Source: Eubacteriales bacterium
Lineage (GTDB): Bacteria; Bacillota; Clostridia; Lachnospirales; Lachnospiraceae
Assembly (NCBI GenBank): GCA_030524715.1
Contig: JAUNGB010000059.1
Coordinates: forward strand, 1-34,249
Direction of reading: 5' to 3'
DNA: 34,249 bases
The translations under genes were made by a program, and so were the position numbers. A model generated the notes under the pieces. The model did no database searches. It was not told the origin of the DNA and saw only the letters and a program-made list of their open reading frames with translations. Each line of letters begins with the position of its first letter. The first letter of the stretch is position 1. Of the stretch, positions 17,724-31,247 are shown piece after piece.

Positions 17724-18398
17724 CTATTGTGCTCCGTATTGTTCATAATATGCGTCGATAGCCGCCTTCAGCGTATCATCAATAATAATCTTCCCTTTAT
17801 ATTCTTTATTATAAAGATGCTCCACAACCTCTGCCATGGTAACGATTGCCGTCGTCTCAAGGCCGTATGTTTCCTCGATCTCCTTAAGAGCGCTCTTAGT
17901 TCCCTGTCCGCGTTCCATGCGGTCCACAGAAACCACCAGGCCCACCGGCTTCACGTCTCCCTGTGCACGGATGATCGGTAAAGTTTCCTGAATGGAGGTT
18001 CCTGCAGTCGTAACGTCCTCGATGATCACTACCTTATCTCCATCCTGAATAGGGCTTCCCAGAAGGATTCCCTTATCTCCGTGATCCTTTACTTCCTTAC
18101 GGTTGGAGCAGTAACGGATATCCTTTCCATATTCCTCGCTGATGGCCATTGTAGCGGCGACTGTAAGGGGAATCCCCTTATAAGCCGGCCCGAACAGTAC
18201 GTCGAAATCCAGACCGAATTTACTTTCGATCGCTTTCGCATAATACTGGCCCAACCTGCGCAGCTGCGCGCCTGTACGATAAAATCCGGTATTTACAAAA
18301 AACGGGGTTTTCCTTCCTGATTTTGTCACAAAATCCCCGAATTTTAATACGTTGCAATCGATCATAAATTCAATAAATTCCTGTTTGTACGCTTCCAT
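17724..18398 (-). CDS. pyrE: Orotate phosphoribosyltransferase
   Basis: PyrE joins orotate and PRPP to give OMP, the fifth step of pyrimidine synthesis; PyrF (33071-33997) then decarboxylates it. The 224-residue protein has the PRPP-binding motif VVIIEDVTTAGTSIQET and the FGPAYKGIPL segment characteristic of the family. The start has AGGAGG upstream. It is separated by about 13 kb from pyrF, pyrK and pyrD, and has its own extended -10 promoter. Confidence 0.97.
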   Translation of the reverse strand: MEAYKQEFIEFMIDCNVLKFGDFVTKSGRKTPFFVNTGFYRTGAQLRRLGQYYAKAIESKFGLDFDVLFGPAYKGIPLTVAATMAISEEYGKDIRYCSNRKEVKDHGDKGILLGSPIQDGDKVVIIEDVTTAGTSIQETLPIIRAQGDVKPVGLVVSVDRMERGQGTKSALKEIEETYGLETTAIVTMAEVVEHLYNKEYKGKIIIDDTLKAAIDAYYEQYGAQ

Positions 18399-18452
18399 AT
18401 CTTTATTTACCTCCTGTTTACCTATCCTTTGATTCTTTTCCTGATTTTTTTT

Positions 18453-18481
18453 ATTCTACCATAACAATCTGAAAATAACAA
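18453..18481 (-). promoter_or_regulatory. Promoter of pyrE
   Basis: On the minus strand TTGTTA (18481-18476) is followed after 17 bases by TAGAAT (18458-18453), with an extended -10 TG one base before it. Just upstream, AGCCTT (18495-18500) pairs with AAGGCT (18511-18516); this could be an operator, but no known PurR or PyrR signal is recognised. No other gene lies in 18399-18687. Confidence 0.7.
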
Positions 18482-18521
18482 TTCCTTTCCTGTAAGCCTT
18501 GTGATAAAATAAGGCTGAAAT

Positions 18522-18573
18522 GTTGCTGTTCACTCCCAAGCCTTGCACTTACTGCAAGGCTTGGGACAGTAAC
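18522..18573. repeat. Interspersed palindromic element, best copy
   Basis: A perfect 13-bp stem, CCCAAGCCTTGCA (18535-18547) with TGCAAGGCTTGGG (18553-18565), has the loop CTTAC. It is flanked by GTTGCTGT (18522-18529) and ACAGTAAC (18566-18573), which pair with one wobble. It lies between the pyrE promoter and the dpp operon terminator. Confidence 0.75.
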
Positions 18574-18574
18574 G

Positions 18575-18625
18575 CCGAAATAACCCCCATCCCTGGCCGC
18601 GGCCCGGGGATGGGGGTTATTTCGG
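18575..18625 (-). terminator. Long hairpin terminator after the dpp operon
   Basis: A perfect 19-bp stem (18575-18593 with 18607-18625) has the inner loop TGGCCGCGGCCCG. Its core CCCCCATCCC/GGGATGGGGG is followed by TTATTT in both directions, so it may act on either strand. It lies 63 bases after the stop of the second ATPase gene. A minus-strand frame across it (18451-18660) is a by-product of the palindrome. Confidence 0.7.
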
Positions 18626-18687
18626 ATCATCATAGGGTCTATGATAATCGTTCTGTTCAATTGAAGCGGGGAAATGCTTATCTGCGT

Positions 18688-19653
18688 TCAAATGCAATGG
18701 CAGCAGGCAAAATGACCGGGAGCCACTTCTCGCATCTGCGGCATTTCTTTCTCACATATCTGTGTCTTAAAAGGGCATCGTGGGTTAAATGGACAACCCT
18801 TTGGTTTATTCAGCGGAGAAGGAATTTCCCCCACCGATTTGATTTTCTGAGGCTTCAGACGTTCCTCTTCTTCGCTCAGAACCGGAATCGACGCCAGAAG
18901 CATCTGCGTATACGGATGTTTTGGATTTTCAAAAAATTCGGCGGTATCCGCATATTCACAGATATTTCCCAGATACATAACGGCCAGCCTGTCGCAGATG
19001 TTTCGTACCAGACACATATTGTGCGTAATAAAAAGATAGGAAAGATGATTATTCCTCTGAAGCTCTCTCAGCTTATTGGTCACCTTCGCCTGTATGGATA
19101 CATCCAGCGCTGAGGTCGGCTCGTCCAAAACGATAAATTTCGGATGGGCGGCAAGGGCCCTGGCCACACAGACAAGCTGCTTTTCACCGCCGCCGACCGC
19201 CCTTGGATACTTATCCAGATAGCTCAATGGAAGACCAACCTCAATCAGCGCATTTCTCACCCGTTCTTCCACTTCTTTTGCAGTCAGCTTTTTTTCTGCA
19301 AATTGTCTGACAGGAACCGTCAGTATCTGACGGATCGTCTTACGGGGGTTCAAAGATCCTCCGGGATCCTGGAAAACTAACTGAATGCTCTGCTTCATCT
19401 CTGAACTTCGTTTTACGGCAGGAACAGAAATATCCGTATCCCCCTGGAAGGTAATCGTTCCGCCGGTAGGGCCGTAAGTACCCACGATCATAGAACCGAT
19501 GGTAGATTTTCCCGATCCGGATTCGCCCACAAGCCCGAAGATTTCTCCCCTGTTAATAGAAAAATCCACTCCGTCTACGGCCACCAGATTTCCGAATTTT
19601 GTCTTGAACTCTTTCCGAAGCCCTTTAACTTCAATCATAGTCTCATTACTCAT
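18688..19653 (-). CDS. Dipeptide/oligopeptide ABC transporter ATPase (DppF/OppF type)
   Basis: The ATG at 19653 is chosen because AGGAGGG lies just upstream; a longer frame would run deep into the preceding gene. The 321-residue protein has Walker A GESGSGKS (43-50), the Q-loop at Q95 and Walker B FIVLDEPTSALD. The C-terminal oligopeptide-transporter extension is cysteine-rich (KGCPFNPRCPF, CEKEMPQ, CCHC). The signature motif reads VGGGE (153-157) instead of LSGGQ: the serine that contacts the ATP phosphate in the family is glycine. Its partner DppD has a normal LSGGM. It overlaps that gene by 8 bases and is the last gene of the operon. Confidence 0.9.
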   Translation of the reverse strand: MSNETMIEVKGLRKEFKTKFGNLVAVDGVDFSINRGEIFGLVGESGSGKSTIGSMIVGTYGPTGGTITFQGDTDISVPAVKRSSEMKQSIQLVFQDPGGSLNPRKTIRQILTVPVRQFAEKKLTAKEVEERVRNALIEVGLPLSYLDKYPRAVGGGEKQLVCVARALAAHPKFIVLDEPTSALDVSIQAKVTNKLRELQRNNHLSYLFITHNMCLVRNICDRLAVMYLGNICEYADTAEFFENPKHPYTQMLLASIPVLSEEEERLKPQKIKSVGEIPSPLNKPKGCPFNPRCPFKTQICEKEMPQMREVAPGHFACCHCI

Positions 19654-20620
19654 TTTTTCTGCCCTCCTTAGCCCCAAAACAGGCAGCCAGATGTCCGGTT
19701 CCGTCATCGGCAAGCACAGGCGCGCTTTCCCGGCACTGTTCAGTTGCCTTCGGACAGCGGTCTGCAAAGCGGCACCCTTTGGGCGGATTCAGATAACTGG
19801 GAATATCGCCGGCAATCCCGTCTGCGATTCCATCTCCGGTCAGTTTCGGCGTTGCCGCCAGCAGCCCCTTTGTATAAGGATGACGGGGATTTTCAAATAC
19901 TTCCTTTGTTCTGCCGTACTCAACAATATTTCCGGCATACATGACATAAACATAATCCGTAATCTTCCTGATCGCGCCCAGCGCATGACTGACGATGATC
20001 AGAGACTTTTTCTGTTCTGTAACCAATGTATCCAAAAGATTCAGGATCTGCTCTTCGATGGTCACATCCAGTGCGGTGGTAGGCTCGTCAGCAATGATCA
20101 GCCTGGTATCCTTCATCAGCGCCATTGCAATGCAGACGCGCTGCCTCATGCCTCCGGAAAGCTGGATAGGATAACTGTCAAGTACACGCTCCGGAGCAGG
20201 CATGGACACCTTTGCCAGTGCATCCAGCATACGCTTTTTATACTCTTCTTTCTTCAGGCCCGGGAACTGGCTTTTCAAAATATCCATCATCTGAGTGGAA
20301 ATCTTAAGGGTTGGATTCAGCGACGAGGACGGATCCTGAAAAATCATTGAAACATTTTTCCGGACATTCTTCAGTCCGGCTCTTGAGTCGGTTCTTAAAC
20401 CGCATACCTCGATTCCGTCCACCTTTACCTGAGCCGGCGGTGTCCGCAGTACAGCCGCCGCCGCTTTTAAAACAGTAGTTTTTCCGCAGCCGGTTTCCCC
20501 GATCAGCCCCACCCGCTCCCCCTCTCTCACATACAAAGACAATCCGTTAATCACTTCCAGAAATCCCTCGTATACACGATACCGCACAGAAAGGTTTTCA
20601 ATTTTCAATATATCAGCCAT
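19646..20620 (-). CDS. Dipeptide/oligopeptide ABC transporter ATPase (DppD/OppD type)
   Basis: The 324-residue ATPase has Walker A GETGCGKT at 41-48, the signature LSGGMRQRV, Walker B LIIADEPTTALDVT and the C-terminal cysteine-containing domain of peptide transporters (PKGCRFADRCPKATEQC). It would pair with the second ATPase beneath the two permeases. The start codon shares one base with the stop of dppC (TAATG), with GGAGG upstream, so translation is coupled. Confidence 0.93.
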   Translation of the reverse strand: MADILKIENLSVRYRVYEGFLEVINGLSLYVREGERVGLIGETGCGKTTVLKAAAAVLRTPPAQVKVDGIEVCGLRTDSRAGLKNVRKNVSMIFQDPSSSLNPTLKISTQMMDILKSQFPGLKKEEYKKRMLDALAKVSMPAPERVLDSYPIQLSGGMRQRVCIAMALMKDTRLIIADEPTTALDVTIEEQILNLLDTLVTEQKKSLIIVSHALGAIRKITDYVYVMYAGNIVEYGRTKEVFENPRHPYTKGLLAATPKLTGDGIADGIAGDIPSYLNPPKGCRFADRCPKATEQCRESAPVLADDGTGHLAACFGAKEGRKNE

Positions 20621-21531
20621 TATTTATCCTCCACTGTCAAAACATCTGTCAGGCCATCACCTAAGAGGTTGAAGCCCATAACAATAACTATAACAGCAAT
20701 CGCAGGCATTACAGACAGCCACCAGAATTCCGGCAGGTAGCCGATCCCGTCAGAAACCATGGAACCCAGGGACGGCGTAGGCGGCTGAACCCCCAGGCCC
20801 ACAAAACTCATACTGGACGCAGTCAGAATAATGCTTCCGGTATCCAGAGTCATCTTGGTTATAATAGATGAGACAAGATTCGGCAGCATCTCACTGAAGA
20901 TAATTCGGAGCATGCTGATACCGGACAATGTGGTGTAGGTAATATACAGCTCATTCGTAAGGGAAGTCACCAGATTATAGGTGATTTTTGTATACCACGG
21001 CCACCACGCGATAGCGATTCCCAGGGCACAGGATATGTAATTATTAGAAAACATGCAGCATACGACCATTGCAAGGATCAAAGGAGGAATGGACATAAAC
21101 AGTTCCATGATCCTGGTAATAACAGTATCGATGATCGTCCCGTGGTAGTATCCGGCAATCAGGCCAAGCACCACGCCCAGCGGAACCGAAATACCGAGTA
21201 CCAAAGCGGCAATGGCAAGCGATGGCCTGAAGCCGATCAGTATTCGGCTGAAAACGTCCCGGCCATAATCATCTGTACCACAGATATGCTTAAGGCTCGG
21301 AGCCTGAAACGTCTCTGCCATATGTGTTACCAGCCCCGCATCTTCCCCATAGGGCGCGATCACCTCACAGAAAATCGTTATAAAAAACACAGCCGCCACA
21401 ATAAACAGCCCCAGCATGGACATGGGATTGCGTGAAAACTTATACCATCCCCGTTTAAAAGCCTCGATCCGTACATGATATTCCTTCCCGGCGGAAGCTG
21501 ACATACTTTTTCCTGTTTTTGTCTTTTCCAT
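20620..21531 (-). CDS. Dipeptide ABC transporter permease (DppC/OppC type)
   Basis: The 303-residue permease has a cytosolic N-terminus, about six membrane helices, and the DppC hallmarks HICGTDDYGRDVFSRIL and SFVGLGVQPPTPSLGSM. The segment near TLSGISMLRIIFSEMLPNL is the position of the EAA coupling loop that docks on the ATPases. The start has GGAGGGG upstream and lies one base after the stop of the second dppB fragment. Confidence 0.93.
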   Translation of the reverse strand: MEKTKTGKSMSASAGKEYHVRIEAFKRGWYKFSRNPMSMLGLFIVAAVFFITIFCEVIAPYGEDAGLVTHMAETFQAPSLKHICGTDDYGRDVFSRILIGFRPSLAIAALVLGISVPLGVVLGLIAGYYHGTIIDTVITRIMELFMSIPPLILAMVVCCMFSNNYISCALGIAIAWWPWYTKITYNLVTSLTNELYITYTTLSGISMLRIIFSEMLPNLVSSIITKMTLDTGSIILTASSMSFVGLGVQPPTPSLGSMVSDGIGYLPEFWWLSVMPAIAVIVIVMGFNLLGDGLTDVLTVEDK

Positions 21532-21532
21532 T

Positions 21533-22545
21533 TCATTCCCCTCCTCTCAAGCGAATGCGGGGATCCAGCATTGCCACGCCAATATCCACCAATGTATTGA
21601 TAACAGAAAACATAATGCCGAAAATCACCGTCACCGCCACAATGCCGTATGGATCCTTATTTAAGATTACATTTAAGGCATATTGTGAAAAACCGTTAAT
21701 GCGGAAAATATTTTCGATGATAAACGCATTGCCCAGCAGCGAAGCCACCTGTAAACCATAAACCGTAAGCGACGGAATAAACGACGGTTTCATCAGATGC
21801 TTCATGATCAGCTTTCTGCGGCTGACCCCTGCAACCTCGGCAAAGGCTATATAATCGGCATTTACAATTTCAACCATGGAGGAACGGTGAATCCGCGCCT
21901 GATACGCAATACTCCCGATGGCAACGCTGATACATGGAAGCGCATACACTGGCCAAACAGCGCAAAATCACCTGACAGTATACTGTCCAGAGCCGGCGCG
22001 CCTGTTTTTATAATTTCCTCCGGAATATCAGGAAATCCTCCAATCGGAAATACCTTCAGCCCATAAGCAAAAATAAGCATAAATACGATCCCGAAGGCAT
22101 ATGCCGGTGTCACAACGCCCAGATAAGTAATGAAACGAACCACGTTATCCACCCAGGTGTTTTTAAAAAGTGCGGAAACCGTTCCTACTAAAACGCCCAG
22201 CACGAGGATCAGTACTGCCGCCAAAAGGCACAGTTCCAGACTGCGCGGAAGATACTGAGCAATGTCAATAGAAACATTACGATGTGTATACAGAGACTGG
22301 CCGAAATCACCGGCAGTTATAATTCCCTTCAGCCAGTGCAGCCACTGAACAACAAACGGACGGTCGAAATAAAGCTGATGTCTGTATGCGGCAATTGTCT
22401 CATCAGATGCCAGCGGCCCAAGTGAGCTTTTGACCGGATCACCGGGGATCAGCCTGATAAAGGAAAACACGATCAGAGACAAAAGCAGCAGGATAAAAAC
22501 CATATGAACAATTTTTTTAATCACAATAGTATAAGTTTTTTTCAT
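21533..22545 (-). pseudogene. Dipeptide ABC transporter permease (DppB/OppB type), interrupted by a one-base frameshift
   Basis: Two frames together make one DppB. The first (22545 down to 21862) has the N-terminal helix MKKTYTIVIKKIVHMVF, the RLIPGDPV motif and the helices up to LSGDFALFG. The second (through 21533) continues from VYALPCISVAIGSIAYQARIHRSSM through the EAA-like loop to the C-terminal MLDPRIRLRGGE. The switch lies near 21950-21960, at CTGTTTGGCCAG on the minus strand. Adding one T to the TTT run (21955-21957) would give a continuous 337-residue protein, normal for the family. The total of 1013 bases is one short of a multiple of three. No slippery heptamer is seen, so this is a mutation or a sequencing/assembly error rather than programmed frameshifting. 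Confidence 0.85.
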
Positions 22546-22626
22546 GGATCACTCGCCTTCCATATCTTACATTCTTTTACGTTGATATTTTTATAAGCCA
22601 AATCTCTTCTTCTGCCATCAGGAATT

Positions 22627-22673
22627 CCCGTTTAGCGGCCTCCGCCTGTTGCAGCCGGCGGCCGCTAAACGGG
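22627..22673 (-). other. RNA stem-loop between the binding protein gene and dppB
   Basis: A perfect 14-bp stem, CCCGTTTAGCGGCC with GGCCGCTAAACGGG, has a 19-base loop. There is no T tract. A stable stem just after a binding-protein cistron is a common way to protect that part of the mRNA and keep the binding protein in excess over the membrane parts (inference). Confidence 0.65.
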
Positions 22674-22728
22674 ACAATGAATGAAAATACCCGGCCATAT
22701 TACTTGCCTGATTTATTTCTATAGCCTG

Positions 22729-24354
22729 TCATGAAGCCATGGTAAAATCATTAAAGTAGTAATTCCATGAAATAACAGGACGGATCTCCCCTTCGCTTAC
22801 ACACCACTCAAAGCTGTCCTTATTCCAGACAGGATTTACCGTACTTACAAGAACATATACGGAAGGCACTACTTCATTTACCACATATTTCTGGATTTCC
22901 GCATATTTTGCTTCACGCTCTGTATCGTCAACGGTAGCAAGCGCTTCCTCGATCATGCTGTCCAGCGTATCATCCTGCAGCCATTCGTTCTGATTATAAT
23001 TGCCCAGCGTCCAGGACGCATATTTGCTTTCCAGAAGAGAACCTGCTTCAGGATAAGAAGCGGAAACAAAGCAATTTGTAATATTGGGGGAAGTACTTAC
23101 ATCTGTCTCGGCGTCACAGAAAGACACCCATGGCGTTTCCTGGATATTCACAGTAAATCCAAGCTGCTGCATTGTCTCGGCCAGCAGCATAGTCAGCTTA
23201 CCTGTTTCCCCGTTTCCCTGGATATAGGACATGGTTACCGGATAATCTGCCAGATTATCCGCATAGGCGGACTGAGCGATCTCCTCTGCGGCCTTTTCCA
23301 AATCATAGGTAAAGGTATCTGTGTCACTGCTGTAGCCCCATAAATTCTGTGGAACCGGACCGGTAGGAATCTCCGCGCCACTGTACATTTCGCTCATGGC
23401 CTCATAATTGCAGGCATAGGAGATTGCGCGGCGGATATGTACATCATCTGTAGGCGCAGCCTTAACATTCATCATAAAATAATCTTCACCGAATTCCGTC
23501 AGTGCAGCCGTCTCATAACCTGCAGCCGTCAGGCTTTTAACTGTTGCGCTTTCCTGATAGCCATGGATAAAGTCCACATCGCCTCCCTGCAGCAGCATTT
23601 TAGTGGTGGCGGCATCCGTTACCTGTGAAAGCTGAATTTCCGAAGGCGCTTTCTCTCCCGCCTCTCCCCACCAGTTTGAATTACGGGTCATAGTATAAGA
23701 GCTGTTCACCTCAAACGCGGTGATCTCATAGGCGCCGGAACCGGCAGAGTGATCCAGAAGGTAGTTTGTCCCGTAATCGCCGTTTTCGCCGTAATCACCG
23801 GACTCTTCCGTATTCTCCTGCATCAGGGTTGAATTTAAAATATAGCACTGTTCGAGAGCGGATACAAAAGGACCATATGTCTGGGTCAGATGGAAGGAAA
23901 CCGTATAATCGTCGATCACCTCCGTGGATTCCACATAATTTGTAAAAAGATATGAATACCCGTCGTTAATGGTCAGCATACGGTCCATGGTATATTTCAC
24001 ATCTGCGGCTGTAAAGGGAGTTCCGTCAGCAAACACAACATCCTCTCTCAGCTTAAAGGTATAATCCATGGTTTCCTCATCATAAGACCATTCTGTTGCC
24101 AGCCAGGGTAATGCAGAGCCATCCTCTTCACTTGGCTTTACAAGGGCTTCATAAACATTAATATAGAGCATATCATCATTTGCGCCGGAACCCCTGGCAG
24201 GATCGCAGGTATCCGGGGTCGTGGAGCAGGTTCCCTTTAAAACGCCTCCCGCACTGTCCTCCGATGCCCAGACAGAAACCTGGCCGCCGCCAAACGCCGT
24301 GGACAGCAGACCGGCCGCCAGCAGGACGCTCATGAATTTTTTCATTTTTTTCAT
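22729..24354 (-). CDS. Dipeptide/oligopeptide ABC transporter substrate-binding protein (SBP_bac_5)
   Basis: The 541-residue protein has the DppA/OppA family fold: LKGTCSTTPDTCDPARGSG near the N-terminus, FKLREDVVFADGTPFTAADV (the family signature) and a C-terminal domain. The signal peptide (KKFMSVLLAAGLLSTAFGG) ends in VWASED, a signal peptidase I site. There is no lipobox cysteine, unusual for a Gram-positive binding protein. It has AGGAGGG upstream and lies 13 bases after the M20 dipeptidase gene, which suggests that import and cleavage of one substrate are linked. Confidence 0.92.
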   Translation of the reverse strand: MKKMKKFMSVLLAAGLLSTAFGGGQVSVWASEDSAGGVLKGTCSTTPDTCDPARGSGANDDMLYINVYEALVKPSEEDGSALPWLATEWSYDEETMDYTFKLREDVVFADGTPFTAADVKYTMDRMLTINDGYSYLFTNYVESTEVIDDYTVSFHLTQTYGPFVSALEQCYILNSTLMQENTEESGDYGENGDYGTNYLLDHSAGSGAYEITAFEVNSSYTMTRNSNWWGEAGEKAPSEIQLSQVTDAATTKMLLQGGDVDFIHGYQESATVKSLTAAGYETAALTEFGEDYFMMNVKAAPTDDVHIRRAISYACNYEAMSEMYSGAEIPTGPVPQNLWGYSSDTDTFTYDLEKAAEEIAQSAYADNLADYPVTMSYIQGNGETGKLTMLLAETMQQLGFTVNIQETPWVSFCDAETDVSTSPNITNCFVSASYPEAGSLLESKYASWTLGNYNQNEWLQDDTLDSMIEEALATVDDTEREAKYAEIQKYVVNEVVPSVYVLVSTVNPVWNKDSFEWCVSEGEIRPVISWNYYFNDFTMAS

Positions 24355-24367
24355 TGGTGATCCCTCC

Positions 24368-25744
24368 TTATTTTATTGCCAGTTGGTAAATAGCAAGGCC
24401 GTACATTTTTATATTTTGGATAATATTTTTAATCAAAGTCCGTTCGTTTGGGGAATGTACGGTTAGTTTTTCGTCCGGATAAACCGCGCCAAAGCATACG
24501 CAGTTTGGAAACGCACGTGCATAAGTTCCTCCGCCGATGGAATACAAAACAGCTTCTGTTCCTGTCGCCGTTTCATACACCTTGCACAGATCTTTAATTA
24601 AAGGAGTATCCTCAGGCACATACAGAGGTTCCTTTATCCTACGCGCCGTACATGTAAATCCGGCGGCGGCCAGCTTCGTCTCAGCGACATCCGCAATAGA
24701 ACGGATATCTTTTGTAACGGGCGTCCGAATATCAAAAGCCGCATTCATCACGCCGTCTTTCAAAGTCAGAAGCCCAAGGTTCAGGGTCAGCCTGCCGGAA
24801 GGCTTGTCCTCACAATCAATTCCAAGTGAAGCACCGTCCGTACCGTCTGCTGCCGCCAGCAAATCCGAAGCGGCATTCCGAATTTCGGGATTGCCTGCCT
24901 TCTCCAATATCTTAAGCAGCGCAGTGATCGCGGAAACTCCGTTTTCCGGCGTATGCGACGGGGCATTGCAGCCTTTGCAGGCGACGGTAACCTCGCCGCC
25001 GTCCGTAACAGCCAGTTCCCCTCCATACTCTTTCACGGCGGACATTAAAGCTTCTTTGTCACAATCCGCTCCCAGAACGGCAGACGCATGTGCCGGAACC
25101 AGATTTGATGCTTCCCCGGCGCTGATTTCCACATCTGATGCAACCTTTCTGGAAAAATCGCCGGTGTAAATGCCTTTTTCCCGGTTCACTACGGTAAACA
25201 TACCATCCGGAGAGAAGCTTGCATCCGGCTGCTCAAGCCTATGCTCTTTGTAATACCGGATGCATCCCCATCCTGTTTCCTCGTTTGTCCCCACAATGAA
25301 GCGGACTCTTTTGCCAGGCTTCAGTCCCATCTGCTTAAGGGCATACATTCCGTAAAGGCATGACAGCAGCGGCCCCTTATCGTCCGCGATTCCTCGTCCC
25401 ACCAAAAATCCGTCCTTTTCTGTCATCTCAAAAGGATCCGTATCCCACGCTGACAGATCTCCGGCAGGAACCACATCCACATGAGAAAGAATACCCAACA
25501 TTTCTTCTCCCTCTCCCCATTCGATGACGCCCACATATCCCTCATAATTGACGGTCTTAAAACCCATTTTCTCCGCAATGGAAAGCAGGTGTTCAAGAGA
25601 TCTGGCAACCTCCGTGCCGAAGGGCGCGCCCTCTTCGGGCGCCCCTTCCACACTTGGGATCGATATCTGCACGCGCAGATCTTCAAAAAATTCAGGCATA
25701 ATTCCGTCCACAAAAGCGGACAGCCTATCATATACTTTTTCCAT
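24368..25744 (-). CDS. M20 family dipeptidase (PepV/Sapep type)
   Basis: This is a 458-residue cytosolic zinc dipeptidase. The two-metal site residues are visible: H88 and D90 in LSHVDVVPAG, D121 in GRGIADDKGP, the catalytic and ligand pair E155-E156 in GTNEETGWG, D180 in SFSPDGMF, and H430 near the C-terminus (VHSPNE). The length and the large lid domain match PepV rather than the shorter carboxypeptidases of the family. PepV enzymes cleave diverse dipeptides, including beta-Ala dipeptides. It starts after GGAGATAAGT, 12 bases after the M29-like gene. Confidence 0.92.
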   Translation of the reverse strand: MEKVYDRLSAFVDGIMPEFFEDLRVQISIPSVEGAPEEGAPFGTEVARSLEHLLSIAEKMGFKTVNYEGYVGVIEWGEGEEMLGILSHVDVVPAGDLSAWDTDPFEMTEKDGFLVGRGIADDKGPLLSCLYGMYALKQMGLKPGKRVRFIVGTNEETGWGCIRYYKEHRLEQPDASFSPDGMFTVVNREKGIYTGDFSRKVASDVEISAGEASNLVPAHASAVLGADCDKEALMSAVKEYGGELAVTDGGEVTVACKGCNAPSHTPENGVSAITALLKILEKAGNPEIRNAASDLLAAADGTDGASLGIDCEDKPSGRLTLNLGLLTLKDGVMNAAFDIRTPVTKDIRSIADVAETKLAAAGFTCTARRIKEPLYVPEDTPLIKDLCKVYETATGTEAVLYSIGGGTYARAFPNCVCFGAVYPDEKLTVHSPNERTLIKNIIQNIKMYGLAIYQLAIK

Positions 25745-25756
25745 ACTTATCTCCGA

Positions 25757-26824
25757 TCAATAGCCGGTGGCGCCCAGCTCTTTGCAGATCCTGACACATT
25801 CCGGATCGGTATAGAACCCATTTTCCTCAATCGCTACTCCATCGCAGTAAATAGAAGGATTCAAAATAATGCCGTCCGTATGATTTGCCGCAACCCAGCT
25901 CTTTCCGCCCAGACCTTCTCCCTGGGTACCGATTCCGATTTCCACGCATCCAAATACACGCTCATCCTCTTCAATACGTCCCGTCGGCTCAGGAATACCC
26001 GGGTTAAATCCACAGGAAATATGGGCAATCCAATACATCTTTTCATCCTTCCAGGATTCCATCCACAGTTTGAACAAATGTGCGTCGCGGTTATCGTCAA
26101 TAATTTCGGTAACAACGCCGTTCTTCACGATCAGTTTTACCGGATGGGTCTGACGTCCGATTTCCTGTGGCGGGAATAAACCGCCGTCATAGACGATCAC
26201 GCCGTTAATGGTTTCCTCAATGGGGCACATGGAAGTCTGTCCGGACAGCATAACAGAAGTTCCCGGAGCCGCATAGGTACCTGACTGATTACACAATCTT
26301 CCCTCACAGGAGAAGGTCAGATCTGTACCTCCCGGGCTTGTAATGCGCATCTCTTTTGCATTATTGTGAAGTTCGACAAGACGGTCTCCCAGTTCCACGA
26401 TCTTATGATGATCATAGCGGCCGATCACATTCAGCATCATGTTGATATCCATAGACGCCGCAGTAATCTGACGGGTACCGCAATCCATTGCCTGTTTCCA
26501 TCCACGCGTGTAAAACAGCTGATAATCATATTCAATCCACACATCCGCAGCCTTGATTGCTTCCAATACAGGCTTCGTCGGCTCGATCATAATAGCCTGA
26601 TCCAGAGAAGCAGGGTACTGCATCACGATCGGATAGCACCCCAGAGTCAGCGCTGCACCGGCAGTTGCGTTAACCACACGCATATCATTGGTAGTATCAC
26701 AGGTGATCAGGACGGTTTCGCCCTCTTTGACTTTCATAATTTCAACCAGCATCTTGCGGGCCGCTTTCTGCAGTTCCCAATTCAAATAATAGTTCTGGCC
26801 TTCTGCCTGTGTTGTTGCTTTCAT
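25757..26824 (-). CDS. M29-like metalloenzyme, closer at its metal site to NicX-type dioxygenases than to aminopeptidases
   Basis: The ATG at 26824 is chosen because GGAG lies 10 bases upstream; a GTG three codons earlier is too close. The 355 residues have the M29 fold pattern (PGGTDLTFSCEGR, CPIEETINGVIVYDGG, EIGIGTQGEGLGG, AANHTDGII). The aminopeptidase ligands E316 and H345 are replaced: where GEFALGTN is expected it has IAHISCGFNPG, and where VHIALG is expected it has VEIGIG. The remaining site is His268, His315 and Asp317, the His-His-Asp pattern I recall for 2,5-dihydroxypyridine dioxygenase NicX, a member of this superfamily. It may be a leucyl-aminopeptidase-like enzyme or an iron enzyme acting on the operon's substrate; sequence alone does not decide. 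Confidence 0.75.
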   Translation of the reverse strand: MKATTQAEGQNYYLNWELQKAARKMLVEIMKVKEGETVLITCDTTNDMRVVNATAGAALTLGCYPIVMQYPASLDQAIMIEPTKPVLEAIKAADVWIEYDYQLFYTRGWKQAMDCGTRQITAASMDINMMLNVIGRYDHHKIVELGDRLVELHNNAKEMRITSPGGTDLTFSCEGRLCNQSGTYAAPGTSVMLSGQTSMCPIEETINGVIVYDGGLFPPQEIGRQTHPVKLIVKNGVVTEIIDDNRDAHLFKLWMESWKDEKMYWIAHISCGFNPGIPEPTGRIEEDERVFGCVEIGIGTQGEGLGGKSWVAANHTDGIILNPSIYCDGVAIEENGFYTDPECVRICKELGATGY

Positions 26825-26875
26825 TGTAAACACACTCCTTTTCTTTGTTTTTTATAATTAAGCCCTATGGTTAGA

Positions 26876-26920
26876 TCAATAACCGCCAGCGCCCAATTCC
26901 TTAGATAAAGATTTATTGCT
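26876..26920 (-). pseudogene. Remnant of the 3' end of a second M29-like gene
   Basis: On the minus strand the codons read SLSKELGAGGY and a TGA stop followed by TC. This closely matches the end of the neighbouring intact gene (CKELGATGY, TGA, TC) about 1.1 kb downstream. An in-frame stop lies 16 codons before the remnant stop and there is no start. It looks like the scar of a former tandem copy. The rest of 26825-26985 shows only a short CCGC/GCGG hairpin. Confidence 0.6.
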
Positions 26921-26985
26921 TACCGCCTATAGAAGCGGAAGTCATCTCACATCTGATATACAATATGTTCCAGGTTTTCTGTCTC

Positions 26986-28194
26986 TTATTTTGCCGGATA
27001 TTTCCTTAAGGCTTCCGCGATCCTGTCAATTGCATTTTTTGCCTCTTCATCGGAGCCAAGACATCCGTCGATGATCCGAAGATATCCGTTTCCCTGCTCT
27101 CCGTAATTTTTGCCGTCGTTGACAGCTACTCCGGCTTCGCGGATAATATATTCCATAATTTCAGTGGAATCCCCCAGTTCTCTTACATCTACCCAGCAGA
27201 AGAATCCTGACTGGGGCATTTCAATCTTCACCTTCGGCACCCTGCCGAAAGCCTCAACACAATACCGTCTCCGCCTGTCATAGCATTGGCGGTACTTGTC
27301 CATAAATCCCGGATTCCGGAACGCTTCAACTGCTCCTGTCTGGGAAGCCGTATGCGCAGCGCCGATCACACTGACAGCAGCGCCGTAATAAACGTCCATA
27401 AACGTATCACAAGCCACAAGATAACCGACCCGGAAGCCGGAAAGCGCCATCCCCTTGGAAATAGAAAAAACGGTTACAGTCCTTTCCCACATACCCGGCA
27501 GTGAAGCCGGAGTCACGAATTCCCTGTTGTCAAATACCGTATCCTCAAACGCCTGGTCTACAACAAGAATTAAATTATGCTTAATGATAAATGACGCCAG
27601 TTCTTCCAGCTCTTCCCTGGAAAAAACAGTTGTCGTGGGATTATTGGGATGCGTCAGGACAACCATTTTCGTTTTTTCCGTAACCGCAGCTTCAAAAACC
27701 TCCATATCCAGCCGGTAATTATGTTCCGCGTCAAGCATAACAGGAACCGTTATCGCTCCCAACAGCCTGGGATTCAGGAAATTGTTTGGATAGCTTGGAT
27801 CCGGAACCAAAACCTCATCCCCCTGATCTAAAAACGCAGACATTGCAAAAAACAGTCCTGAATCCGACCCCGGAGTAATAATAATATTCCTGGAAGGATC
27901 CGCATCCAGATGGTTAAAACTCTTAAGCTTCTTGGCGATTTCTCTCCTGAGTTCCAGGGAGCCTGTCGGTTGAGTATAATGCGCGGGAAATCCTGACTTA
28001 TACGCCTCAATGACCGTATCAAGGATATTCTGCGGAATTGCAGGATCCGGATAAAAAGGATCCGCCCATCCCATCAAAGTAACTTTACCTCCCATAGCCG
28101 CAAAACTGTCTCCCACATCTGCCTTGGTAACTTTACTGAACAGCCCGCCCTCTACATTTTTGAAGCGTTGGGAAATCATCTCTCTGTTATCCAT
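26986..28194 (-). CDS. PLP-dependent class I/II aminotransferase
   Basis: The ATG at 28194 follows GTGGAGGAAATA; the apparent upstream GTG start is part of that ribosome binding site. This 402-residue fold-type I enzyme has HPNNPT, LVVDQAFEDTVF (D213 pairs with the PLP nitrogen), Schiff-base lysine K247 in SISKGMALSGFRVGYL and the phosphate-binding R255. A C-terminal GYLRIIDGC arginine sits at the substrate carboxylate position. It resembles aspartate/aromatic or alanine-type aminotransferases. The amino donor cannot be read. It follows ridA by 25 bases. Confidence 0.9.
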   Translation of the reverse strand: MDNREMISQRFKNVEGGLFSKVTKADVGDSFAAMGGKVTLMGWADPFYPDPAIPQNILDTVIEAYKSGFPAHYTQPTGSLELRREIAKKLKSFNHLDADPSRNIIITPGSDSGLFFAMSAFLDQGDEVLVPDPSYPNNFLNPRLLGAITVPVMLDAEHNYRLDMEVFEAAVTEKTKMVVLTHPNNPTTTVFSREELEELASFIIKHNLILVVDQAFEDTVFDNREFVTPASLPGMWERTVTVFSISKGMALSGFRVGYLVACDTFMDVYYGAAVSVIGAAHTASQTGAVEAFRNPGFMDKYRQCYDRRRRYCVEAFGRVPKVKIEMPQSGFFCWVDVRELGDSTEIMEYIIREAGVAVNDGKNYGEQGNGYLRIIDGCLGSDEEAKNAIDRIAEALRKYPAK

Positions 28195-28219
28195 TATTTC
28201 CTCCACTTATAAATCCATA

Positions 28220-28600
28220 TCATAAAACAGCAACCGCTTCGATTTCGATCAGCGCCCCTTTTGGAAGCGAGGAAACTTCAACTACTGCCCGCGCGGGAGG
28301 CTCCTTTTCAAAAAAGCTCTGGTATTTTTCATTGATTCTGCTAAATGCCTCCATATCCCGAATAAAAAGCGTGCATTTTATAATGCTTTTTTCACTTCCT
28401 CCGGCGGCTTTCACAATAGAAATTAAATTCTTCATGGATTGAACCGTTTGATCCTCGATCTTCTCGGGCATCAGGCCGGTTTCCGGGTCGACAGGAAGCT
28501 GCCCCGAAATATACAGGGCCGTTCCCTGTGCGGCCACCGCCTGAGAATAGGGACCTATCGCCGCAGGCGCCGCGGCAGTGCTGACAATTTTTTTAGTCAT
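28220..28600 (-). CDS. ridA: RidA family enamine/imine deaminase
   Basis: RidA proteins hydrolyse reactive enamine or imine intermediates released by PLP enzymes. The second of two nearby ATGs (28600) is preferred, since GGAG lies 8 bases upstream of it and only 2 from the first. The 126 residues have the signature PPARAVVEVSSLPKGALIEIEAVAVL with the catalytic arginine (R104) and the following glutamate, so it belongs to the active RidA group. It is the first gene of the operon. Pairing with an aminotransferase suggests protection from, or processing of, a 2-aminoacrylate-like or other imine product. Confidence 0.92.
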   Translation of the reverse strand: MTKKIVSTAAAPAAIGPYSQAVAAQGTALYISGQLPVDPETGLMPEKIEDQTVQSMKNLISIVKAAGGSEKSIIKCTLFIRDMEAFSRINEKYQSFFEKEPPARAVVEVSSLPKGALIEIEAVAVL

Positions 28601-28647
28601 AGTCATATCTCCTTTATTTTTTTAACTGTTCCCTGAAAGCTTCTCTT

Positions 28648-28715
28648 AAAAAAAATAGCAAGCGAGCCAAAAAGCGAATGAAATTTTTTAACGTTTATCC
28701 GCCAGCTCCCTTGCT
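28648..28715 (-). promoter_or_regulatory. Candidate transcription attenuator in the ridA-dpp operon leader
   Basis: On the minus strand AGCAAGGGAGC (28715-28705) pairs with GCTCGCTTGCT (28667-28657), 10 of 11 positions, around a 37-base loop. After one A it is followed by eight T (28655-28648). The first arm begins within a few bases of the predicted transcription start (about 28717). An intrinsic terminator this early, before ridA, would shut the operon off unless an antitermination event occurs. Confidence 0.5.
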
Positions 28716-28723
28716 TTTATTGT

Positions 28724-28752
28724 ATTATATTTCAGTTTTTCTAATAAGTCAA
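28724..28752 (-). promoter_or_regulatory. Promoter of the ridA-aminotransferase-peptidase-dpp operon
   Basis: On the minus strand TTGACT (28752-28747) is followed after exactly 17 bases by a perfect TATAAT (28729-28724). It is divergent from the regulator promoter, with about 76 bases between the two -35 boxes. That AT-rich stretch is the likely binding site of the regulator. Confidence 0.8.
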
Positions 28753-28827
28753 TAGTATTTTGAAAAATATTTCATCCATTTTTATCCTTTTTTGATTGTG
28801 CTGAATTATTTTTTATTTTGTATATAA

Positions 28828-28856
28828 TTGACACATTACATTGTTTGCTATATAAT
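28828..28856 (+). promoter_or_regulatory. Consensus promoter of the YheO/DauR-like regulator
   Basis: A perfect TTGACA (28828-28833) is followed after 17 bases by a perfect TATAAT (28851-28856). A leader of about 90 bases follows. At its end AAAACCT (28933-28939) and AGGTTTT (28945-28951) form a 7-bp stem with the Shine-Dalgarno GGAGG as its loop, three bases before the GTG start. Confidence 0.85.
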
Positions 28857-28954
28857 ATATTTTAAGAATTATTCCGTTATTTCTAATAATCGGGTAGTAT
28901 TTCTGCAATGATAAAAGCTATTCCGAACAATTAAAACCTGGAGGAGGTTTTGTA

Positions 28955-29626
28955 GTGGACTCGTTTACTGTTTCATTAACCCAGGAGGATCGTACTGTCC
29001 TTAATTCTTATGCCATCATGGCTGAAGGTCTGAGCAACTACCTGGGAAGCTGCTATGAAATTGTTATTCATAGCCTTGAGGATCTTAACAAATCAGCGAT
29101 TAAAGTACTTAATGGTTTTCACACAAACCGTACAGAGGGCGCTCCCATCACGGATCTTGCACTTCAAATGCTTGCCAAAATGACGGCGGATCCCTCTTCG
29201 AATTATTCCTCCTACTTTACTACCAACCGGGATGGAAACCCCCTTCGTTCTACTACCATAGCAATACGGGGAGGCAATAACCGAATCATCGGACTATTAT
29301 GCATTAATTTTTATTTAAATTCTCCCATGAATGAAGTTTTAAAATTTTACCATCCCCAGGAAGAAAAAGACTCGGCCGAACTTCCTCTCACTGAAACCTT
29401 TGCCGAGAGCATTGACGAACTGATAACCCGCGCCGTTGCCTCCGCAGTTCAGACGGTCAAGGAAACTCCCGGTATTTCAAGCAGTCTCCGCAATCGGGAA
29501 GTAATTTCCATTCTCAATCAGCAGGGGGTATTCAAATTTAAAGACAGCGTGATCAAGGTAGCAAAATGCATGGGAATTTCTAAAAATACAGTGTACCTTC
29601 ATCTCCGTACATTATCAGGAAAATAA
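28955..29626 (+). CDS. YheO/DauR-like transcriptional regulator (PAS-like domain plus HTH_22)
   Basis: This is the only accepted plus-strand gene, starting at a GTG with GAGGAGG 7 bases upstream. The 223-residue protein has a YheO-like PAS sensor domain at about 10-125 (MAEGLSNYLGSCYEIVIHSLEDLNKS, STTIAIRGGNNRIIGLLCINF). A C-terminal HTH_22 domain lies at about 170-222 (REVISILNQQGVFKFKDSVIKVA, GISKNTVYLHLRTL). In the family, DauR senses D-arginine catabolism, and such regulators are often found beside RidA and amino acid enzymes. Its divergent position indicates that it controls the ridA-dpp operon, responding to the transported compound or a breakdown product (inference). Confidence 0.88.
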   Translation: MDSFTVSLTQEDRTVLNSYAIMAEGLSNYLGSCYEIVIHSLEDLNKSAIKVLNGFHTNRTEGAPITDLALQMLAKMTADPSSNYSSYFTTNRDGNPLRSTTIAIRGGNNRIIGLLCINFYLNSPMNEVLKFYHPQEEKDSAELPLTETFAESIDELITRAVASAVQTVKETPGISSSLRNREVISILNQQGVFKFKDSVIKVAKCMGISKNTVYLHLRTLSGK

Positions 29627-29634
29627 GTTCTCTC

Positions 29635-29667
29635 ATTACTGTTCAGCTCTACGGTGTAAACAGTAAT
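29635..29667. repeat. Interspersed palindromic element, short copy
   Basis: ATTACTGTT (29635-29643) and AACAGTAAT (29659-29667) are perfect 9-bp inverted ends around 15 bases. It starts 9 bases after the regulator stop. Same terminal sequence as the copies at 8639, 18522 and 34023. Confidence 0.6.
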
Positions 29668-29694
29668 CGTCACTCTTCTATACAAATATAACGA

Positions 29695-29742
29695 AAAGGG
29701 ACTGTGAAAAGGAGTTGAAAACTCCGGATTCACAGTCCCTTT
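29695..29742 (+). terminator. Bidirectional intrinsic terminator between the regulator and the Big_2 protein
   Basis: A perfect 14-bp stem, AAAGGGACTGTGAA (29695-29708) with TTCACAGTCCCTTT (29729-29742), has a loop containing a GGAGTT/AACTCC stem. It continues ATTTC on the plus strand and TCGTT on the minus strand. It ends the regulator gene and may also serve the convergent Big_2 gene. Confidence 0.75.
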
Positions 29743-29759
29743 ATTTCTGCTGAATAGGC

Positions 29760-29813
29760 AAAGCGGACATTCATATTCCCCTTTGCTGCATGCTTATGAA
29801 TGCGAGCCGCTTT
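29760..29813 (-). other. Long imperfect hairpin downstream of the Big_2 protein gene
   Basis: AAAGCGG and CATTCATA (29760-29775) pair with TATGAATG and CCGCTTT (29795-29813), with a small internal loop and a 19-base apical loop. The T tail is short on both strands. It lies 24 bases after the gene end, so it may be its processing or termination site. Confidence 0.5.
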
Positions 29814-29837
29814 TCTGCAGAATTATTCAAGCAAACA

Positions 29838-30560
29838 TTAAAAAAGAGTATTTTTCAGATAACTGCTTACGTCAGAAGTTGTCATGCTCTTTTTAAAGGG
29901 CAACGTCACGGACTCCTGCCATCCCCAGCGGTTCCATTTTGAAAGAACAGTCGTCTTCATTTTTAAGGTAACCTTATTTTTTCCAAAAATCAGGGAACCC
30001 GTACCTGAATTTCCCCAGGTATCCTTCCAGGAAAATTTTGAAACCTTATTTCCACTGAGCTTTGCTGTAATCACATTTGTCTGATAGATCGGCGAACCGT
30101 TTACGCCATAGTGCTCTGCCACAAATCTGATCTTTCCTCCGGAAAGCTTCTGAACTGTCACAAAATCCCCTGCGCCTATACTTCCTGGTCTGGGCGCTGC
30201 ATTGATTCTGGAATATTCCCCCTGCTTTACATAGCTGGCGGTGTTCTCTTTAACTGTTACCGTACATTTGGCAGTTTTTCCATTAGCTTTCGCAGTGATG
30301 ACTGCCGTACCTGTTTTTTTACCGGTCACCTTTCCTTTGCTGCTGACGGAAGCAACCGAAGGTTTACTGCTTGCCCAGGTTACCGTCTTGCTTTTTCCTG
30401 TTACTGTTGCCGTAAGCGTTGTAGATTTTCCTGCTGTGACGGATACTTTGGATTTGCTCAGCTTTATAGATGCTTTTTCTGCTGCAAATGCCGGTACCGT
30501 CATACCCAGAACCATACAAAGAGCCACGAGCAATACCAATAAGCTTTTCTTTTTCTTCAT
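29838..30560 (-). CDS. Secreted Ig-like (Big_2) domain protein
   Basis: This 240-residue protein starts after AGGAGGAG with a signal peptide (KKKKSLLVLLVALCMVLG, cut at AFA-AEK). Residues 30-106 are a bacterial Ig-like group 2 domain (IKLSKSKVSVTAGKSTTLTA, TWASSKPSVASVSSKGKVTG, GTAVITAKA). The remaining 130 residues form an unrecognised beta-rich domain (GGKIRFVAEHYGVNGSPIY, WNRWGWQESVTLPF). No sorting signal is visible, so it is probably released or non-covalently attached. Big_2 domains are common in adhesins and carbohydrate-active proteins. Confidence 0.85.
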   Translation of the reverse strand: MKKKKSLLVLLVALCMVLGMTVPAFAAEKASIKLSKSKVSVTAGKSTTLTATVTGKSKTVTWASSKPSVASVSSKGKVTGKKTGTAVITAKANGKTAKCTVTVKENTASYVKQGEYSRINAAPRPGSIGAGDFVTVQKLSGGKIRFVAEHYGVNGSPIYQTNVITAKLSGNKVSKFSWKDTWGNSGTGSLIFGKNKVTLKMKTTVLSKWNRWGWQESVTLPFKKSMTTSDVSSYLKNTLF

Positions 30561-30578
30561 TATATCTCCTCCTTATTT

Positions 30579-30659
30579 CTATTCTTCCTCTTCCTTTGCC
30601 CACAGATACAGCACATTTCCCTTCATCTCGGCAGATGAAAGTTCTTTTTCTACATACAT
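30579..30659 (-). CDS. Possible 26-residue peptide ORF between the Uma2 and Big_2 genes
   Basis: The frame reads MYVEKELSSAEMKGNVLYLW followed by AKEEEE and a TAG stop. An AAGGGA sits immediately before the ATG, which is too close for a good ribosome binding site. It could equally be the decayed end of a longer gene. Its amphipathic, acidic composition is more protein-like than random, but there is no independent support. Confidence 0.2.
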   Translation of the reverse strand: MYVEKELSSAEMKGNVLYLWAKEEEE

Positions 30660-30664
30660 TTCCC

Positions 30665-31189
30665 TTACTCTATTGTTATACAGAATCCATTATATATACC
30701 TACAGGGATAATATCCCTGAAAGCATACTCTTCCATGGATTCCTTCTCAAAATTGTATACCGTCGTCTTTCCTTTCAACGGGTCAACGATCCAGTATTCC
30801 CTTACGCCAGCCGTCCTGTATTTAAACAGTTTCGTCATATAGTCCCTACTACGACTTTCAGGAGAGACTATTTCAATGATCCAGTCAGGCGCACCGTGGC
30901 AGCCTTTTTCATCTAACTTGTCAGGGTCGCAGATAACAGAAATATCAGGCTCCAAATAGTTGTTCTCGTTTAAAAAAACAGCAAACGGAGCAGCATAAAC
31001 CTCACAAGAGCCTCTTTTGCCTTGGATATATTGATAAATCTCTGAAAAGAGTTTACCAGAAATCCGTTGGTGACGTCTTGTAGGCGGAGCCATATAATAA
31101 ATTTGTCCGTCTATTAATTCTGCTCTTGTACCCTCGGGTAAAGAGTAAATATCTTCAATAGTATATAATTTCTCTTGCGCTAATGTCAT
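30665..31189 (-). CDS. Uma2 family (DUF820) PD-(D/E)XK nuclease-like protein
   Basis: The ATG at 31189 follows GGGAGG; a longer frame upstream runs into the promoter. The 174-residue protein matches the Uma2/DUF820 group: YTIEDIYSLPEGTRAELIDG at the N-terminus, RRHQRISGKLFSEI, EPDISVICD, and the PDWIIEIVSPESRSRDYMTK nuclease core. The family has a restriction-endonuclease-like fold; its cellular role is not established, and members are abundant in cyanobacteria and patchy in Firmicutes. The gene is more AT-rich than the flanking pyr genes, consistent with acquisition. It has its own promoter just after pyrD. Confidence 0.85.
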   Translation of the reverse strand: MTLAQEKLYTIEDIYSLPEGTRAELIDGQIYYMAPPTRRHQRISGKLFSEIYQYIQGKRGSCEVYAAPFAVFLNENNYLEPDISVICDPDKLDEKGCHGAPDWIIEIVSPESRSRDYMTKLFKYRTAGVREYWIVDPLKGKTTVYNFEKESMEEYAFRDIIPVGIYNGFCITIE

Positions 31190-31211
31190 ACACACACCTC
31201 CCTTTTCCTTT

Positions 31212-31240
31212 ATTATGCTTACATCATAATAGGGTTTCAA
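31212..31240 (-). promoter_or_regulatory. Promoter of the Uma2 family gene
   Basis: On the minus strand TTGAAA (31240-31235) is followed after 17 bases by CATAAT (31217-31212), one mismatch from consensus. It lies in the 58 bases between the pyrD stop and the Uma2 start. Confidence 0.65.
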
Positions 31241-31247
31241 GTGAGAT

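Follow-up and report, generated by a model that had tools for sequence, protein, structure and literature searches.

Cyclic dipeptides (2,5-diketopiperazines) occur widely in nature and withstand peptidases. In the M29 aminopeptidases, Glu250, Glu316 and His345 (AmpT numbering) serve as metal ligands and Tyr352 is catalytic. Which enzymes hydrolyse cyclic dipeptides is still unclear according to the accessible text of PMC3852281 (2013), while that of PMC7910607 gives the Fe(II) ligands of NicX (2,5-dihydroxypyridine 5,6-dioxygenase) as His265, Ser302, His318 and Asp320. Gene clusters with a cyclodipeptide oxidase and no cyclodipeptide synthase hold PF01177, DUF917, AroM, OPT and dipeptide ATP-binding cassette (ABC) transporters, and peptidases, as far as the accessible text of PMC11055893 describes them. 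Here we analyse an operon in the window, a 34,249-nt contig stretch from Eubacteriales bacterium (Lachnospiraceae; genome G000 below), that encodes a protein of the M29/NicX fold. We see an even chance that this operon serves to import and break down small peptides, cyclic dipeptides being the most likely substrates, with the M29-like protein opening the ring.

An earlier note on this DNA had read the locus as a regulated unit for taking up and catabolising a small peptide, one that includes a dipeptidase, a pyridoxal-phosphate (PLP) enzyme and RidA. That reading stands, and its nine minus-strand genes (RidA, PLP enzyme, M29/NicX-like, M20, OppA to OppF) and divergent YheO/DauR-like regulator are confirmed, each at the place it gave:

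28955..29626, plus strand, transcriptional regulator of the YheO/DauR type (PAS_6 + HTH_22; PF08348 + PF13309; Pfam)
28220..28606, minus strand, RidA imine/enamine deaminase (PF01042; TIGR00004 153 bits against a cut-off of 106; alignment)
26986..28194, minus strand, fold-type I PLP enzyme, aminotransferase-like (PF00155), with a DQAF motif (Pfam, alignment)
25757..26824, minus strand, putative metallohydrolase of the M29/NicX fold, proposed cyclic-dipeptide ring opener (Q199, H271, R292, E298, H318, D320)
24368..25744, minus strand, M20 dipeptidase of the PepV/Sapep type (PF01546; TIGR01887 415 bits against a cut-off of 208)
22729..24354, minus strand, family-5 substrate-binding protein OppA/DppA (PF00496; Pfam)
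21533..22545, minus strand, oppB permease, broken into two frames by a 10-nt deletion (alignment)
20620..21531, minus strand, oppC permease (PF00528; Pfam/NCBIfam)
19646..20620, minus strand, oppD ATPase (PF00005 + PF08352; Pfam/NCBIfam)
18688..19653, minus strand, oppF ATPase (PF00005 + PF08352; Pfam/NCBIfam)

In the proposed route, OppABCDF would take up the substrate, the M29/NicX-fold protein would convert the cyclic dipeptide to a linear one, and the PepV-type M20 dipeptidase would split this into two amino acids, one of which the PLP enzyme would transaminate or eliminate from. RidA would hydrolyse an enamine or imine that the PLP enzyme gives off as a by-product, or else a dehydro-amino acid from a ring already oxidised by a cyclodipeptide oxidase, and the PAS/HTH regulator would sense substrate or product. 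The predicted roles of the import system, the dipeptidase and RidA are established by family; from the protein sequences and their context we infer the ring opening, the number of metals, the order of the steps and the ligand of the regulator.

Metal site of the M29/NicX-like protein

The M29-like protein has the M29 fold and passes no Pfam or NCBIfam cut-off (PF02073 gives 14.7 bits against a gathering score of 27). An alignment of the window protein and seven relatives retrieved 324 relatives from a genome collection, the best 80 of which were used as loci. In the profile alignment, E250, E316, H345 and Tyr352 of the M29 enzymes become Q199, H271, E298 and G305 (numbering of the 358-aa form that starts at GTG 26833), and these four residues are identical in all 81 sequences, the window plus 80 loci. 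Three of the four NicX Fe(II) ligands are kept. The protein is probably a metallohydrolase, and would bind one metal through H271, E298, H318 and D320. On this metal site we set aside both a canonical M29 aminopeptidase and a NicX-like oxygenase.

The site bears on two other readings. If the operon scavenged linear dipeptides, the M29-like protein would join the M20 enzyme as an aminopeptidase for linear peptides brought in from outside, leaving the amino acids to be processed by the PLP enzyme and RidA. We hold this to be a possible but rather unlikely account, since the change of a ligand Glu to Gln, the exchange of Glu and His and the loss of Tyr to Gly are seen in all 81 sequences, and some of the same clusters hold a compact relative in which E/E/H is retained. 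Far less probable is cleavage of an N-heterocycle with O2 by an Fe(II) dioxygenase of the NicX type: Ser302 is replaced by Gly300 and the extra Glu298 relative to NicX is invariant, both in 81 of 81; the family is present in lineages of strict anaerobes; and the window operon has no ring hydroxylase among its genes.

The compact type (~315 aa) keeps the canonical E/E/H/H/D ligands and has lost the catalytic Tyr. It accounts for 6 of 14 distant genes (L042-L047) and for 5 of the 12 M29-fold open reading frames (ORFs) of the oxidase loci described below (L153, L156-L158 and L163), where it stands beside the window type three times (L153, L156 and L158). In these three loci it is as if ring opening fell to one type and splitting of the peptide to the other. 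M29-like relatives occur in Firmicutes, Actinobacteria, Synergistetes and others. By score (at least 250 bits, at most five candidates scored per genome), the family with the window-type site is found in 15 of 398 phylum genomes, the residues being checked in the oxidase loci and the window genome, as compared to 119 of 398 for all M29-fold genes of mixed types at E 1e-12.

Neighbouring genes and cyclodipeptide oxidases

Within 4 kb of the M29-like gene, a peptide transporter (OPT or Opp) is found in 75 of the 80 loci, an S33 or M20 peptidase, both acting on linear peptides, in 66, a DUF1177, AroM, racemase or DUF917 gene in 31, a PLP enzyme in seven, and RidA in four, solely the four sister operons described below. 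These counts come from clustering and profile searches, the family models for which were derived from these very 80 loci. For each main neighbour group, a single representative was compared with Pfam, and LysR was named by eye; in high-GC loci, ORFs were chosen by a codon-position rule, and overlap keeps many of their M29-like ORFs out of the neighbour listing. Transporter, peptidase and DUF1177/AroM/racemase/DUF917 genes together become sparser with distance, with 0.52 per kb at 0-2 kb and 0.058 per kb at 8-10 kb. In Actinobacteria, the most frequent arrangement is IclR, OPT, M29-like, S33. The single S33 protein examined has proline iminopeptidases as its closest match, at a score under the cut-off, and such a peptidase would fit proline-containing rings. 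DUF1177 (PF06675) occurs in 21 of the 80 loci (e.g. L094, 6344-7288) and may be a partner in this metabolism. The earlier note had let the M29/NicX-like enzyme act late, on an amino acid already set free, a placing that is probably wrong: because the family keeps the company of peptide transporters and peptidases, and the PLP enzyme is rare, the imported peptide is the more likely substrate of the protein.

AlbA/AlbB-like oxidase pairs, in which a nitroreductase-like gene overlaps a gene of 98-111 aa, occur in 3 of 93 loci (L043, 10382-11180; L077, 16105-16876; L114, 1724-2670), those of L077 and L114 with window-type M29 genes and that of L043 with the compact type. The larger L077 protein matches AlbA (8uc3, E 1e-22, ranking behind one other nitroreductase), and the smaller, the one protein from which the AlbB match comes, matches AlbB only (E 0.024). 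The two subunit genes are known to overlap in cyclodipeptide oxidases (accessible text of PMC11760959). Weaker nitroreductase-like ORFs without a B subunit were seen in six more loci (L067, L069, L073, L075, L076 and L097).

A reverse search with a profile of the three B subunits (E 0.001) gave matches in 14 of 398 phylum genomes (10 strong, with 11 loci) and in 2 of 64 genus genomes. From these we took 12 oxidase loci (L152-L163), the 11 strong ones and that of G080, leaving out G028, which is seed L043, and four weak ones. An M29-fold gene is present in nine of the 12, or in eight of 11 without L152, apparently the same contig as seed L077; three of the M29-fold matches have one stop within the aligned stretch. 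The window type is present in six of 11 (L153, L154 with E298 lost, L156, L158, L160 and, as a fragment, L159), where ~0.009 window-type genes would be expected per locus (13 matches in 28.5 Mb). At the genome level, the window type at 250 bits or more is found in 6 of 10 oxidase genomes vs 9 of 388 others (p 2e-7), or in 5 of 9 once the seed genome is excluded (p 3e-6), and the mixed types in 8 of 10 vs 111 of 388 (p 0.0014). Splitting by type lowers the local count from eight to six of 11 and sharpens the genome-level association; thresholds differ between the neighbour searches of the 80 loci and the oxidase-locus searches. The oxidase-like subunit genes (L043, L077, L114 and L152-L163) come from the genus of the window, from other Firmicutes and from an Anaerolineae metagenome-assembled genome (MAG), often beside a racemase, DUF917, DUF1177 or AroM. 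Scavenging of linear dipeptides leaves the linkage with cyclodipeptide oxidases, racemases and DUF917 unaccounted for. RidA acting on a dehydro-amino acid from an oxidised ring would explain why relatives share oxidase clusters, but G000 has no B-subunit match (three-sequence model, E 0.001), and so by this search no cyclodipeptide-oxidase cluster.

That absence is one of several points that weigh against cyclic dipeptides as the substrate. We know of no member of the family with a tested activity, and a literature search, outside which most subscription journals fell so that it is not proof of absence, found no paper tying M29-like proteins to cyclic dipeptides. No oxidase was seen in the examined flanks of the four sister operons. 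Among the 12 oxidase loci, which were found with seeds from M29-linked loci, three (L155, L161 and L162) have no M29-fold gene, two of those genomes having none at E 1e-12, and L157 and L163 carry the compact type only, with canonical ligands. The compact type and, where present, DUF917/S-Me-THD proteins could open the ring instead, and linear peptides, too, are substrates of family-5 transporters and M20 dipeptidases. Some distant relatives (L036, by Pfam; L037-L039 resemble it by eye) adjoin an NCS1 permease and a PucR regulator, which fits other heterocycles and prompts hydantoin or purine use as a weak alternative. For the oxidase clusters without a synthase, PMC11055893 suggests purine metabolism or biosynthesis, with no mention of M29 or aminopeptidases in its accessible text.

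With these points counted, we put forward a fuller proposal only tentatively, as plausible but somewhat doubtful: that the family defined by the Q/H/E/H/D site, which the window protein and those of 80 of 80 loci share, consists of diketopiperazine ring hydrolases, related to M29 by a swapped ligand pair and a lost Tyr, and that the window operon would be a complete anaerobic route for cyclic, possibly dehydrogenated dipeptides, in which RidA would remove the enamine of the dehydro-residue.

Recurrence, the PLP enzyme and the inserted block

Rarity of this gene combination was what the earlier note had named as speaking against an operon; instead, the set recurs in Papillibacter cinnamivorans and in Christensenellaceae, Clostridia and Halanaerobiales MAGs. 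Regulator, RidA, PLP enzyme, M29-like, M20 and Opp genes stand together in 4 of the 80 loci, all of other lineages, which is more than chance. The Christensenellaceae MAG (L049; M29-like 78%) and P. cinnamivorans DSM 12816 (L050; 72%) have the full set in window order; the uncultured Clostridia MAG (L048; 86%) keeps that order up to a contig end past oppC; and the Halanaerobiales MAG (L051; 74%) is rearranged, with a co-directional regulator and an oppD-like gene before the M29-like gene. In the window, spacing is 25 nt between RidA and the PLP gene, 12 nt between M29 and M20, and 13 nt between M20 and OppA, OppC/OppD and OppD/OppF overlap, and wider gaps lie upstream of the M29-like gene (161 nt) and between oppA and oppB (183 nt). 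Some genes start slightly inside the ORF ends, a correction to the first listing. An Rfam scan of the window gave 0 matches.

The PLP enzyme has four relatives in the 398 phylum genomes (43-58% identity), none of them in a genome with an M29-fold match. In L170, regulator, RidA and PLP enzyme are together and adjoin a Na+/H+-antiporter-like transporter; L171 has Opp genes, M24, M32 and an amidohydrolase whose closest match, under the cut-off, is Xaa-Pro dipeptidase; L169 has a similar amidohydrolase beside fatty-acid-type genes; and L172 has an M28 peptidase, so that three of these four fetched loci have a peptidase-like gene nearby. The lack of M29-fold matches and the arrangement of L170 indicate that the regulator-RidA-PLP and M29-M20-Opp parts are separable. 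In three Synergistetes loci, a distant aminotransferase (27-30%) lies ~3 kb from the M29-like gene.

What the PLP enzyme does bears on two further readings. In a cysteine-conjugate pathway, Opp would import a Cys-Gly-type conjugate, the M20 enzyme would free the cysteine conjugate, the PLP enzyme would be a C-S lyase and RidA would remove 2-aminoacrylate, the M29-like protein having a separate, hydrolytic role. The enzyme scores 156 bits with the PatB C-S lyase model, and the Cys-Gly-3M3SH dipeptidase model gives 196 bits; RidA genes cluster with PLP enzymes that produce 2-aminoacrylate (accessible text of PMC4433059); and the DQAF motif, with Phe for Tyr, is present in nine of nine sequences (window, L048-L051 and L169-L172), as compared to DEIY in three Synergistetes aminotransferases, and could mean elimination rather than transamination. 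Both models nevertheless stay far under cut-off (340 and 1025), the PLP enzyme fits many aminotransferase models as well as PatB or better, and no clear role is left for the M29-like protein; we judge the pathway unlikely. A catabolic operon for D-arginine or another D-amino acid under a DauR homologue is more improbable still. It would draw on the PAS_6/HTH_22 regulator and on GntC, whose substrate is an arginine derivative and whose model (NF041364) scores highest in NCBIfam for the PLP enzyme and for three relatives. The match reaches 235 bits against a cut-off of 415, the operon has no D-amino-acid dehydrogenase, and the YheO/DauR regulator family is broad. The label DauR-like is right for the domain family (PAS_6 + HTH_22), and nothing ties the operon to D-arginine. 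Orthologues of the regulator are divergent in L048-L050 (43-52% identity) and co-directional in L051 (27%); a PDB search with the regulator sequence gave no matches.

Three features of the locus were passed over by the earlier note: the link to cyclodipeptide oxidases, the insertion of the operon into pyr genes, and the broken oppB. The elements concerned, with those of control, are:

18400..31247, block of ~12.8 kb between pyrD (31248-32153) and pyrE (17724-18398), missing from four of four fetched genus mates
28828..28856, plus strand, promoter-like site TTGACA-17-TATAAT for the regulator (12 of 12 consensus positions)
28724..28752, minus strand, promoter-like site TTGACT-17-TATAAT for the operon (11 of 12 consensus positions)
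28657..28715 (also taken as 28648-28715), minus strand, leader hairpin followed by a U run, upstream of RidA (121-nt fold, z -2.2)
22627..22673, minus strand, hairpin between oppA and oppB with no T run (by eye, from sequence only)
18534..18625, minus strand, two strong inverted repeats 3' of oppF (inverted-repeat search)

The block is flanked by pyrF, pyrK and pyrD (33997-31248) on one side and by pyrE (18398-17724) on the other (Pfam). In the four fetched genus mates (L131-L134, drawn from 36 with a pyrE match), pyrE follows pyrD after 25 to 74 nt, and window ~18400-31247 has no counterpart. The PLP enzyme at E 1e-80 is found in 0 of 63 other genus genomes, and the M29-like protein has a best identity of 37% outside G000 (392 order genomes). 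We infer horizontal gain, because the block is absent from the fetched genus mates and the PLP enzyme from the genus, and pyrE is native-like, being 96% identical to that of the best genus mates. Contamination was considered, the genome being rated 5% contaminated and genus mates lacking the operon, and was rejected on that pyrE identity and on the native genes at both block ends. No target-site repeat was seen when each border was searched singly. The block also holds a Big_2-domain protein with a signal-like start (29838-30560) and a Uma2 gene (30665-31240), both by Pfam.

The window oppB lacks 10 nt at one place (deletion region 21862-21949) compared with all four relatives (L048, L049, L050 and L051), and this, being no one-base slip, may be a real loss; the rest of the operon is intact around it. 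Import by the window's own Opp transporter may thus be impaired in this strain, and may depend on another transporter. By eye, no lipobox Cys was seen in OppA of the window or L051, and one is present in L048-L050.

Of the two promoters that the earlier note had called, both sites exist, yet a 14-kb scan gave 22 promoter-like sites vs 22.7 in shuffles, a chance-level total, so that position and high score alone argue for these two. The leader hairpin is a possible, weakly supported attenuator. Read by eye, the Papillibacter leader (L050) has a perfect TTGACA-17-TATAAT in the alignment and, downstream of it, a GC-rich hairpin and a T run. The inverted repeats after oppF likely mark the transcription end ahead of pyrE; behind two terminator-like hairpins, pyrE probably needs another promoter.

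Comparison with known systems

Were the M29-like family to open the ring, the question of cyclic-dipeptide hydrolysis would gain a specific, testable gene, and oxidase clusters of unknown purpose would gain a catabolic reading. The window operon is a conserved catabolic unit of known kind, probably gained horizontally, with one enzyme family of possibly new function. That family shares with the M29 aminopeptidases (AmpS, AmpT, PepS) the fold and the H-x-D pair near the C-terminus, but differs in E250 (Gln), in E316 and H345 (swapped to His and Glu) and in Tyr352 (Gly). With NicX it shares the fold and the positions of His265, His318, Asp320 and Arg293, whereas Gly stands for Ser302, Glu298 is invariant, and the genomic context differs. 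The window M20 enzyme resembles the PepV/Sapep dipeptidases in scoring above the TIGR01887 cut-off, but falls under the PepV equivalog cut-offs. Finally, the same companion families that the accessible text of PMC11055893 gives for oxidase clusters without a synthase (PF01177, DUF917/S-Me-THD, AroM, OPT or dipeptide ABC transporter, peptidases) surround the M29-like relatives, whereas oxidase, racemase, DUF917 and AroM are all absent from the window operon, in which RidA, the PLP enzyme and a regulator of the YheO type are found instead.

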